Shown: positions 15,297-48,864 of the stretch, one piece after another
Position numbering within the stretch: the first letter of the stretch is position 1
Layout: the number at the start of each line of letters is the position of its first letter
IMG/VR virus record: IMGVR_UViG_3300025266_000002
Span: 1 to 48,864 of that record
Source of the DNA: a virus
Length of the DNA stretch: 48,864 nt
Reading direction: 5' to 3' (one strand)
Notes under the pieces: model-generated
Seen by the model: only the letters and a program-made list of their open reading frames with translations
What the model was told of the DNA's origin: nothing
The model's database searches: none
Position numbers and translations under genes: made by a program

Positions 15297-15338
15297 TTAC
15301 ACGCTAAAACCACGCCAAATAAATTGCAAGGAAAAAAT

Positions 15339-15881
15339 ATGGTTAAGGGAAAGGAAACGGGCGTTGGGGGCCGAAAAAACGAGGCTATGACGCCCGCGAA
15401 AGTCTCGAAAGCCATTGAAAACGCTGGACTTAGCCTCACAGAAAAACAAATTCGTATCTTGCAGTTCTACATTGGTGGGATGAGCAAATCAGCGGCATGC
15501 GAAGCCGCCGGGTTTCCTCCGACGCTATCATGGAGCGCGTTCAATCACCCTAAAATGGCCGCTGCAGTGGGCGCGGTTGTCGACCAATTCTTGACTGTGG
15601 AAGCAGCGCCAGCGGCGCTCAGACTGCTGTATAAGGTCGTCGACGACGACAAAATGGCCGCTGGCGTCCGAGTACAAGCAGCGAATAGCCTCCTGGATCG
15701 CGCGGGCTTCACTGCGAAACGCCATGAGAAACAGGACGATAACACGCGGGACGTCAGCACCATGTCGGCCGACGAATTGCGCGCGCAGATCGCCAAGCTT
15801 GAGGCCGAAATGCAGGACGTTACGCCCGATAGCGATGCAGTTAGCGGCGCAATAGATAGCTATGATGCTGATTTTGCTTGA
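15339..15881 (+). CDS. terS: Terminase small subunit
   Basis: A 180-aa protein that should recognise phage DNA for packaging. The N-terminal HTH-type segment is LSLTEKQIRILQFYIGGMSKSAACEAAGF (about 31-59). A helical part follows (VDQFLTVEAAPAALRLLYKVVDD, VRVQAANSLLDRAGF), then an acidic coiled C-terminus for oligomerisation (SADELRAQIAKLEAEM). The pattern fits podovirus TerS. ATG 15339 has AAGGAA before it; the open frame reaches further back without a start signal. It is 6.2 kb from TerL, an unusual separation. Confidence 0.82.
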   Translation: MVKGKETGVGGRKNEAMTPAKVSKAIENAGLSLTEKQIRILQFYIGGMSKSAACEAAGFPPTLSWSAFNHPKMAAAVGAVVDQFLTVEAAPAALRLLYKVVDDDKMAAGVRVQAANSLLDRAGFTAKRHEKQDDNTRDVSTMSADELRAQIAKLEAEMQDVTPDSDAVSGAIDSYDADFA

Positions 15882-15886
15882 TGTTC

Positions 15887-15905
15887 ACTGCCTTAACAAG
15901 GCAGT
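15887..15905 (+). terminator. Hairpin just after terS
   Basis: ACTGCCTT and AAGGCAGT form a perfect 8-bp stem with loop AAC six bases past the stop. There is no T-run, so it may stabilise the 3' end or pause rather than end transcription. A second stem, GCACCCC/GGGGTGC, lies at 15933-15954. Confidence 0.45.
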
Positions 15906-16023
15906 AGCACGCCTCGATCGGCTCGCCGACCCGCACCCCGCCCCCTGGGGGTGCCTGGCGCCGGCGCAGTGCGAAGCCTGCAGGGCCGCTCTACTAAATT
16001 TTGCAAATTCCAGCACTTTTGCT

Positions 16024-16052
16024 CTTGCATTTGTCGAAACATGCGACTAACT
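16024..16052 (+). promoter_or_regulatory. Promoter CTTGCA-N17-CTAACT carrying a dispersed motif
   Basis: A -35 CTTGCA (16024-16029) and -10 CTAACT (16047-16052) are 17 bases apart, the same form as the repressor promoter. The spacer contains the dispersed motif TTGTCGAAACATGCG (16031-16045), so a protein bound there would block the polymerase. It would drive the folded region at 16091-16412 and the two genes after it. Confidence 0.5.
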
Positions 16053-16090
16053 TCCGAACGACAGCGCATGACACGCTGTTTTCTCCGGAC

Positions 16091-16412
16091 CGCGCCGCGG
16101 GCAGGCTTTGTACCTTTCACTGCCCGCGGCGCGACTGGAAAAACAAGTTCTTCTGATATCAGCCGGTGCGCCGGGCGGGTCACTCCTCCCTATCTTCCCG
16201 CACTCGCCGCAGCCCCTTCCCCGCAGGGCGAGACCGGCGCACCTGCTGATACCAGAATTGGCCAGTTCCGCTGGCCTCCGAGCAGGGGGTTTCGTTTGAC
16301 TGACGAAACGCGCCGTCAGGATTAGTCACCTGTGCGGCACCCCGCGAAACAAATGTCCGGCCTGACCTACCGGACACCGCGCGGGCCGTTAGACCCAAAG
16401 TCCGGCCCGCGC
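16091..16412 (+). ncRNA. Candidate structured RNA with three-way junction
   Basis: The 564-bp gap between terS and the gene at 16446 has no convincing gene. Hairpins follow one another: H1 16091-16104/16120-16133 (14 bp perfect); a three-way junction with P1 16157-16174/16234-16251 (17 of 18 pairs), P2 16175-16179/16197-16201 and P3 16203-16208/16227-16232, with only two unpaired junction bases; H4 GGCCAG/CTGGCC 16260-16276; H5 GTTTCGT/ACGAAAC 16289-16309; H6 TGTCCGG/CCGGACA 16354-16376; H7 GCGCGGGCC/GGCCCGCGC 16379-16412. It could be a free RNA, a leader controlling the genes at 16446, or a packaging site next to terS. The strand is inferred from the promoter. Confidence 0.5.
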
Positions 16413-16445
16413 ACCCTTCTTAAAACCACGAAAGGAGAAAAACCC

Positions 16446-16670
16446 ATGACCAGAAAAGCAACTCGTGCGGACATAGTGGCTCGGATCATTCGCGACGCGC
16501 TTTTGATGCACGACCGCGTCAACCAGCCTGCGGCGAATGTGATCCTGGGTGAGTGTGCGACTGTCGGAGACCGGCTCGTACGCGAAGCCGGCCTGTGGCC
16601 CGACCCAAAGATTGCGATCAGCAACGAAGACCGGGCCGCGTTGCTCGAGACAATTGCCCGAGGCGCATAG
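16446..16670 (+). CDS. Hypothetical small protein (74 aa)
   Basis: Starts MTRKATRADIVARIIRDALL with AAAGGAG nine bases upstream, which decides this start within a longer open frame that runs back into the folded region. Mostly helical; ends NEDRAALLETIARGA. First gene after the structured RNA candidate; unknown function. Confidence 0.7.
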   Translation: MTRKATRADIVARIIRDALLMHDRVNQPAANVILGECATVGDRLVREAGLWPDPKIAISNEDRAALLETIARGA

Positions 16671-16674
16671 AACC

Positions 16675-16908
16675 ATGTTCGAATGGATCGCAAGCGCATT
16701 GAGCTTTTGGGCCAACCCAATGGCCCACCACCTAACCGAGAACGGATATCCGCGCCGCAAACCGTGCCCCGAATGCGGAAAACCGCTGTTTGTGGACGCG
16801 GACGGGTGGGTGTCGTGCCCACGTCAGCAACTGCCGACCGATTGTTTCTACGCGAAGAAGCGGTCGCACCCTGGCCCGAGCCATCCCGGATACACCGATG
16901 GGGTCTGA
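16675..16908 (+). CDS. Small zinc-ribbon-like protein
   Basis: A 77-aa protein, start ATG 16675 five bases past the previous stop. An aromatic amphipathic N-terminus (MFEWIASALSFWANPMAHHL) is followed by a ribbon: CPECGKPLFVDADGWVSC, then a further Cys. The two knuckles resemble rubredoxin-like ribbons of small phage proteins. It ends two bases before the stop of the convergent peptidase gene. Confidence 0.68.
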   Translation: MFEWIASALSFWANPMAHHLTENGYPRRKPCPECGKPLFVDADGWVSCPRQQLPTDCFYAKKRSHPGPSHPGYTDGV

Positions 16909-43658: not shown

Positions 43659-44714
43659 TCACATCTCCAATCGCGCCGCCAGGCTCTCCGCAGAGTGGTG
43701 GCCGTACACGCGGTCGACCGTCGTCGCCGTATCTCCCAATAGCTTCCCCACATCGTAGATCGAAACGCCGTCCTGCAGCAAGTGTGTCGCGCGAGAGTGC
43801 CGGATGATGTGCAGGTGCTGCTTGCCTTCCGGCAGACCGACCGCCCTCGCCAGCTTGCGGACGCGCCGGTAGTAATCGGGGTATTGAAACAGCCGGTCGT
43901 CGCCGCCCGTCTCCAGCAATGCCGACACGACCGGCTCCATGGCCTTGAGTATCGGCACGATCGGCTGCCTCTTCTTGGTGGCCTTTTTGTCGGCCGGCTT
44001 CAGGATAATGCGTCGCTCGCGCCAGCGGACCTGGCCACGGGTCAGGTTCTCGATCGAGCGGCGCCGGGCGCCGGTCAAATACAGCAGCCGCAGAAACAGG
44101 CCGACATCACCTTCTGCGTTGTCAGCCGCCGCGAAAAGCGCCTCTAGCTCATCGTGCGCCAGGTACGACACCTCGTCGTCCCGCCCGCCCCCGACCGAAG
44201 GCAGCTCGACGTCGACCGGCACAGCACCGGGCTTACGGTTCTTGACGGCGTGATTGGCCGCGGCGACGAGCACCGTCAGCTCGCGGCGGATCGTCGATGC
44301 GCCAACCGGTTTGTTCCGCCCAGGGCCGCCGCCTACGCGGCCCGCAGCTCTGCCGGCGGCGTACGCTTTGCTGGCCGCGATGTCCGCATCGCGCACCGGC
44401 ATCTCGCCATAGTATTGCTTCAGGGGGTATATCGCGAACTCGTTGCGCTCTGGCGCTGCGCATTTGGCGCGCACGTGTTCGTCCATATATCCATCGAGCA
44501 CCTGCCCGACGGTCAACACACCGTCGCCCTTGGGCTTGCGAAGCTCGCGCCCGTTGATTAAGAACTCGCCGAACCTAAGCTCCGCTTGATCTTTGTCTCG
44601 CGTACGAAGGCTGATGCTTCTTGTTGTGCGCGCGCTCTCGTCGTACCAGAACGCGTAAAAGATTCCGTTATCGCGCGTGTCGAGCCACGGGGTCGTCCTC
44701 TTGGGTCTCGCCAT
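43659..44714 (-). CDS. int: Tyrosine-family integrase
   Basis: A 351-aa site-specific recombinase. N-terminal arm-binding region (NGIFYAFWYDESARTTRSISLRTRD), core-binding helices (about 65-170) and the catalytic domain: R217 in LTGARRRSIENL, H302-x-x-R305 in LHIIRHSRAT, and nucleophile Y337 in VDRVYGHH. The position normally holding LGH reads LLGD. GGGGAG precedes ATG 44714. It should insert the phage at tRNA-Val(CAC), using attP at 47437-47486. The start overlaps the excisionase-like gene by about 150 bases. Confidence 0.93.
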   Translation of the reverse strand: MARPKRTTPWLDTRDNGIFYAFWYDESARTTRSISLRTRDKDQAELRFGEFLINGRELRKPKGDGVLTVGQVLDGYMDEHVRAKCAAPERNEFAIYPLKQYYGEMPVRDADIAASKAYAAGRAAGRVGGGPGRNKPVGASTIRRELTVLVAAANHAVKNRKPGAVPVDVELPSVGGGRDDEVSYLAHDELEALFAAADNAEGDVGLFLRLLYLTGARRRSIENLTRGQVRWRERRIILKPADKKATKKRQPIVPILKAMEPVVSALLETGGDDRLFQYPDYYRRVRKLARAVGLPEGKQHLHIIRHSRATHLLQDGVSIYDVGKLLGDTATTVDRVYGHHSAESLAARLEM

Positions 44715-47312: not shown

Positions 47313-47348
47313 GATTGCTCCGTTAACTGCGCAGTTAACGGAGCAATC
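47313..47348. other. Perfect 36-bp palindrome
   Basis: GATTGCTCCGTTAACTGC (47313-47330) is followed at once by its exact reverse complement (47331-47348), so there is no loop. It sits 90 bases from attP between the end of the replication operon and the lysis genes. It lacks a T-run for termination. Possible roles: site for a dimeric protein, replication or integration control, or end of the early transcript. Confidence 0.8.
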
Positions 47349-47436
47349 TGTCGCGTTTCTCAGGTTTCACGATGCCGATAAGAGCAATGTTTTCAGCAAA
47401 ACTTTGTCGAATGTTGTCAGTTTTTAGGTTCGAAAA

Positions 47437-47486
47437 CTGCCTTCACACGGCAGGGGTCACAGGTTCAATCCCTGTCGCGCCCACCA
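47437..47486 (+). other. attP: attP core: 3' half of a tRNA-Val(CAC) gene
   Basis: The 50 bases fold as the 3' part of a tRNA: anticodon stem CTGCC/GGCAG (47437-47441/47449-47453) with loop TTCACAC (anticodon CAC at 47444-47446), variable GGGTC, T-arm ACAGG/CCTGT with loop TTCAATC, acceptor strand CGCGCCC, A, and encoded CCA (47484-47486). The 5' half is absent. Carrying the tRNA 3' end is the normal way for an integrase to rebuild the target gene after insertion. Confidence 0.88.
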
Positions 47487-47500
47487 CCTAAACCACTGAA

Positions 47501-48054: not shown

Positions 48055-48864
48055 TTCCTGTACCTCTCTCCTTCGAAGCCTTCGGCGGCCACCGGAAGAC
48101 CGGCAGCCCACGCAGGCAAATCACACATGATTTCTTCCATCTCGCCAACAGACCCGTGGCCGCCCGGCACTTCGCAGACCACTTCGTCGTGGACCGTCAA
48201 AATTATCGGGTAGCCCGCCGCTTCGAGCCGCGGCATCGCGTCAGCCAACACATCGCGGGCGACGGCCTGCGTGGCATTTTCCGCGAGCATTCCGCCATAG
48301 GTCTTGATCCGCGCCCATGTCGGGCTGTTGCGCTCGTCCTCGACGATCTTCTTTTTCTTCGACACGTCGATCGTCGAGAAATATGTCAGGCCCTCTTTCG
48401 TACCGCCCCACGGCACTTCGAACTCGCGCACTTCGGGGAACGGGTACATCATGAACCGGCCGCTCGGCAGCCGCATGAACAGGAACGATCCGGCGCATTT
48501 GAAGACGATCCGGCCCGCGCGATGGATCGAGCCTGGCGCGCGCACCGCGGACACCGCCGCGTTCTCCATGTCGTACCAGAACTGCTTGATGGCCGGGTGC
48601 TTCTCGCGCCAACCGTCGCGGATGGCTTCGATCTCAGGCACGTCAAGGTTCACGCCATAGGCTTCGGCCATCGTTGAGAACGCGCCGACACCGCCCTGAT
48701 ACCCAAGGGCCAGCTCCGGCACCTTGCCGTGGCTCTGCCGTTCGTCCTTCGTCACGTCGCCCGGATCCTTGTGCAGAATGCCGCCGGCGGTGATCTTGTA
48801 AAGGTCGTGGCCGACCCCGGCATCGAAATCACGGAACGCGTCGATCTTCCACATTTCGCCGGCG
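48051..48864 (-). CDS. polA: DNA polymerase I (family A), C-terminal part; continues from 1-1428
   Basis: Palm and fingers of the polymerase described at 1-1428. Motif B region GKVPELALGYQGG (Lys at about residue 481, Tyr at 489 of the joined protein) and motif C TVHDEVV with HDE at about 659-661 are intact, so the enzyme should be active. The stop overlaps the next start (ATGA). Bases 48738-48864 duplicate 1-127. Confidence 0.95.
   Translation of the reverse strand, partial: AGEMWKIDAFRDFDAGVGHDLYKITAGGILHKDPGDVTKDERQSHGKVPELALGYQGGVGAFSTMAEAYGVNLDVPEIEAIRDGWREKHPAIKQFWYDMENAAVSAVRAPGSIHRAGRIVFKCAGSFLFMRLPSGRFMMYPFPEVREFEVPWGGTKEGLTYFSTIDVSKKKKIVEDERNSPTWARIKTYGGMLAENATQAVARDVLADAMPRLEAAGYPIILTVHDEVVCEVPGGHGSVGEMEEIMCDLPAWAAGLPVAAEGFEGERYRK
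48738..48864. repeat. Right copy of the 127-bp terminal direct repeat
   Basis: Identical to bases 1-127; counted once, the genome is 48,737 bp. See the left copy. Confidence 0.95.

Follow-up and report, generated by a model that had tools for sequence, protein, structure and literature searches.

A strongly folded non-coding region behind terS in a temperate phage, a possible regulatory RNA

The window analysed here, a DNA stretch of 48,864 nucleotides, comes from a temperate phage of a type found in alphaproteobacteria, with bases 1–127 identical to the last 127 bases (48738–48864), which fits a circular assembly. An integrase is encoded at 43659–44714 on the minus strand, and a possible attP of the same phage lies at 47420–47495, the end of which (GGTTCAATCCCTGTCGCGCCCACCA) resembles the 3′ end of a tRNA gene. 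The region under study, 16024–16445, sits between terS, encoding the small terminase subunit (15318–15881, plus strand; PHROG 2538 and 51), and two small ORFs on the plus strand, starting at 16446 and 16675. The first of these (16446–16670, 74 aa, codon score +0.12) is a possible gene downstream of the folded region, with a product that has no PHROG or Pfam family and no match in phages; weak matches to this product cover only 28–37 residues, and were rejected as relatives. The second (16675–16908, 77 aa) is zinc-ribbon-like but below the Pfam cut-off, and its codon score, near 0, is ambiguous.

TerL searches returned relatives from IMG/VR as well as from genomes with the labels Mycoplana and Chelatococcus, with profile matches to terS in 46 distinct loci, a set from which copies were removed and in which the window is counted. 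A TerL search of ~790 sampled host genomes gave four more genomes with a relative, with terS present in the surrounding DNA of two of these, followed by other cargo. Across the relatives, the slot after terS holds HNH genes, small ORFs, or hairpins. In a Nitratireductor soli prophage (L125:2037), a 13-bp hairpin with the loop AACATCCTCCC and a T-run lies downstream of terS, and is possibly another small RNA. Despite a similar TerS, phage tf was rejected as a relative of comparable layout, with a lysozyme directly after its TerS gene.

Between terS and the folded region lies a bipartite DNA element, composed of the palindrome CCCCCTGGGGG (15941–15951, assigned to neither strand) and a CTAAATTTTG box (15994–16003, plus strand). 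Its general form is a CCCCC(T/C)GGGGG-like palindrome followed, mostly at a spacing of 53–56 nt, by a box around AAATTT, and such a pair stands directly after terS in 31 of the 46 loci, compared with a mean of 1.9 and a maximum of 5 in shuffles. Microcystis phage Mae-Yong1326-1, which is more distant, also has the element, box included. Neither its record nor that of RHph_N65 terminates at this element, which is neutral with regard to a cos site. The widely conserved element at 15941–16003 is a good candidate for a packaging site, a role that the first-pass annotation had considered for the folded region, but which better fits this upstream element.

A putative promoter, TTGCAT-N17-TAACTT, is located at 16025–16053 on the plus strand, with TTGTCGAAACATGCGAC in its spacer. 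It is weak by consensus, with three of six bases matching in each box, and a strict promoter scan found none at this site. The position is nonetheless kept in the relatives L005, L010, and L009, with TTGCAN-N17-TACANA at the equivalent place; the CTCTTGCA box is common to these three and the window, whilst the second box is TACA-type in the three relatives. The spacer motif is indeed dispersed, as had been claimed, with eight copies of TTGTYGAAANNTGAGA (two mismatches or fewer) at 2707, 9792, 16031, 22095, 26558, 29468, 47234, and 47262, compared with 0.45 expected. Several copies lie upstream of genes, terL among them, and a binding site for a phage regulator is their likely identity. As a means of finding relatives, the DNA pattern CGCTCTACTAAATTTTG was rejected, having returned only L005 and L010 again plus an unrelated gene, and the matches listed for a looser pattern with CTCTTGCA added no further relatives.

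On the plus strand, the minimum free energy of 16024–16445 is −199.6 kcal/mol, compared with −144.3 kcal/mol (sd 5.3) for shuffles (z −10.4), with 0 of 100 shuffles folding as well, and the region ranks first of 1218 in a genome-wide fold scan using 160-nt windows on both strands. As a sequence feature, the structured region is real. The minus strand also folds (z −7.2), and because only 5 of the 124 pairs of the plus-strand fold are G-U, the plus strand was assigned mainly from its better z-score and the promoter. Outside this region, one of the best-folding stretches is 47313–47348, a perfect inverted repeat (GATTGCTCCGTTAACT-GCGC-AGTTAACGGAGCAATC) that adjoins the possible attP.

The predicted plus-strand fold begins with a 5′ hairpin (16061–16079), followed by a two-tier hairpin (16084–16139; z −6.3 for 16060–16145) with a 5-bp outer stem, a 14-bp inner stem, and the 15-nt loop GCUUUGUACCUUUCA. 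The inner stem, at 16091–16104/16120–16133, is perfect, as the first-pass annotation had it. A three-way junction follows at 16151–16257 (z −5.9 for 16146–16262), with inner helices of 5 bp (16175–16179/16197–16201) and 6 bp (16203–16208/16227–16232), and with bases 16202 and 16233 as its only unpaired junction bases. The helices abut as described earlier, but the outer one (16157–16174/16234–16251), previously given as 17 bp, consists of 7 + 10 bp around one mismatch, and is lengthened by a further 5 bp (16151–16155/16253–16257). Downstream hairpins are formed at 16260–16276, 16282–16345 (within which lie hairpins at 16289–16309 and 16312–16338), and 16354–16376, with a GC-rich hairpin at 16379–16412.

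A convincing coding signal was not found in the region, in line with the view of the first-pass annotation that no credible gene is present. The inner ORFs score −0.07 to −0.30, whereas real genes average +0.31, the one exception being a 38-codon stretch of an inner ORF (16332–16445) with an ambiguous +0.08. No gathering-level match to any Rfam family was found in the window, or in L005, L009, L010, L016, L028, L132, and L133, and matches obtained at a permissive E-value in 15850–16700, to microRNA and archaeal models, are weak and unrelated, and were judged to be chance. No DNA-level match to the folded RNA was found in phage and plasmid collections, and the collections searched did not yield a copy that could be aligned, not even from phages whose TerL is 76% identical. 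By this comparison, the RNA is not conserved in sequence, and the search gave no homologue suited to a covariation analysis; an alignment of three sequences was uninformative. The description of the region as a new phage RNA thus holds insofar as it is structured, non-coding, and without an Rfam match, whilst the folded stretch is only probably transcribed.

One loop of the three-way junction, UCACUCCUCCCUAUCUU at 16180–16196, contains the anti-Shine-Dalgarno octamer CUCCUCCC (16183–16190) with an unpaired probability of 1.00. The octamer occurs once in the window, both strands considered, and CTCCTCCC is found on either strand of the window only at this loop. The second junction loop, CCCUUCCCC (16214–16222), is pyrimidine-rich, as are the other large loops, which lack the motif. 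Among the window and its five nearest relatives, CTCCTCC, complementary to the Shine-Dalgarno sequence, occurs within 700 nt of terS and on the terS strand in four of the six (the window, L005, L010, and L133), with no occurrence on the opposite strand of the same stretches in the six loci, and these sites are mostly unpaired (0.82–1.00). Fixed 700-nt stretches were used because an earlier motif count had employed segments of L132 and L133 picked around the motif, and because the L132 copy, since dropped, lies inside a probable gene. Shuffles reach four of six loci with a frequency of 0.001, a value to be read with the motif having been chosen after the loops were seen, and with other 7-mers being equally widespread among the six phages. 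Across the full set of 46 loci, CTCCTCC is not in significant excess (0.125). In L133, two hairpin loops carry the exact nonamer (CCUCCUCCC, CCTCCTCCC). When hairpins with a motif-bearing loop were sought more widely in these regions, seven were found on the terS strand compared with four on the other, a modest bias.

Behind the promoter of L005 and L010 come, in this order, a two-tier hairpin, a GGGGGTG..CACCCCC stem with a T-run, and a convergent endolysin. On sequence grounds, such an arrangement is that of a small RNA standing on its own, and the corresponding RNA of these two phages appears to end at the terminator-like hairpin. No terminator-like site was found in the window between the folded region and the gene at 16446, and readthrough into this gene is therefore possible. 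This would suit a 5′ leader acting in cis on the small-gene operon 16446–16908, in which the fold would control access to the RBS AAAGGAG, for example through pairing of UUUUCUCC (near 16080–16087) or of a loop with GGAGAAAA. The RBS of 16446 is partly covered by a small hairpin (16416–16437, plus strand; mean pair probability 0.66), and the duplex between the UUUUCUCC segment and the RBS region has an energy of −10.5 kcal/mol, stronger than in 93% of shuffles; however, no duplex passes 5% against shuffles, and a convincing relative of the 16446 gene was not found. The regulatory leader suggested by the first-pass annotation is thus possible in the window, but in L005 and L010 the hairpin RNA apparently ends first, with no gene to lead, and we regard this explanation as rather doubtful, ranking it second.

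Our first choice is an anti-Shine-Dalgarno regulatory RNA of the phage, working in the manner of the alpha-r14 and cuckoo sRNAs without having their membership features, to which we assign a probability of roughly 40%. Its computed basis is the fold, the absence of a convincing coding signal, the common promoter position, and the terminator-like ends in L005 and L010. A non-coding, structured RNA gene would be transcribed from the promoter behind terS and the terminase-linked DNA element, and its loops, above all UCACUCCUCCCUAUCUU of the three-way junction, would pair with the purine-rich Shine-Dalgarno sequences of mRNAs, lowering the translation of the targets as with the alphaproteobacterial alpha-r14 sRNAs. 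In the window phage, the RNA may also share a transcript with the two small genes downstream.

In the alpha-r14 sRNAs, hairpins that diverge in their stems present CCUCCUCCC in their loops, by means of which mRNAs are silenced (PMC3927594, PMC10746234). Like alpha-r14 (NfeR1 and SmelA075/SmelA099 of the Rhizobiales) and the related cuckoo/CcsR RNAs, the window RNA combines several hairpins of divergent stem sequence with an unpaired loop that holds an anti-Shine-Dalgarno sequence, and has a possible sigma-70-like promoter (weak by consensus in the window, but kept in position) and an alphaproteobacterial setting, with relatives in the Mycoplana- and Chelatococcus-labelled genomes. Unlike alpha-r14, it is phage-borne, ~380 nt long, and contains a three-way junction; it also lacks an Rfam match, although Rfam may hold no alpha-r14 model. 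Against the anti-Shine-Dalgarno reading, each of the three alpha-r14 hairpins exposes CCUCCUCCC in an unpaired loop, whereas the window has one match, at 8 of 9 positions, rather than one in every hairpin, and the lack of a terminator-like site in the window argues against an sRNA. Compared by description only, the phage-encoded sRNAs AsxR and AgvB are likewise phage-carried non-coding RNAs acting by base pairing, as proposed for the window RNA, but are described as sponges of host sRNAs (PMC12559287).

It is unlikely that the region is simply a variable cargo slot, a lineage-specific insert after terS with a function apart from anti-Shine-Dalgarno loops or neighbouring genes; the mixed contents of this slot in relatives are in keeping with such an insert, but in the nearest phages the promoter position is common and pyrimidine-rich loops recur, which speaks against it. 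The phi29 pRNA is a structured phage RNA linked with packaging; the window RNA differs in having no Rfam match, with the packaging-like conserved signal being a DNA element outside the fold. Although the structured region adjoins terS and starts ~60 nt after the bipartite element, its own participation in packaging, as DNA cruciforms or as RNA, is improbable, with the folded part not conserved, whereas the upstream element is, and with unrelated genes occupying its place in relatives.

Extending the anti-Shine-Dalgarno regulatory RNA to a rapidly diverging family of hairpin RNAs behind terS in alphaproteobacterial temperate phages, dampening host translation in infection or lysogeny, is a speculative step that we consider unlikely. 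If the bipartite element is a packaging site, it would serve as a sequence signature by which packaging could be recognised in a large group of phages, most of them uncultivated. If the loops act as proposed, these phages would have acquired, or evolved anew, a type of translation-blocking sRNA that is known from their hosts.
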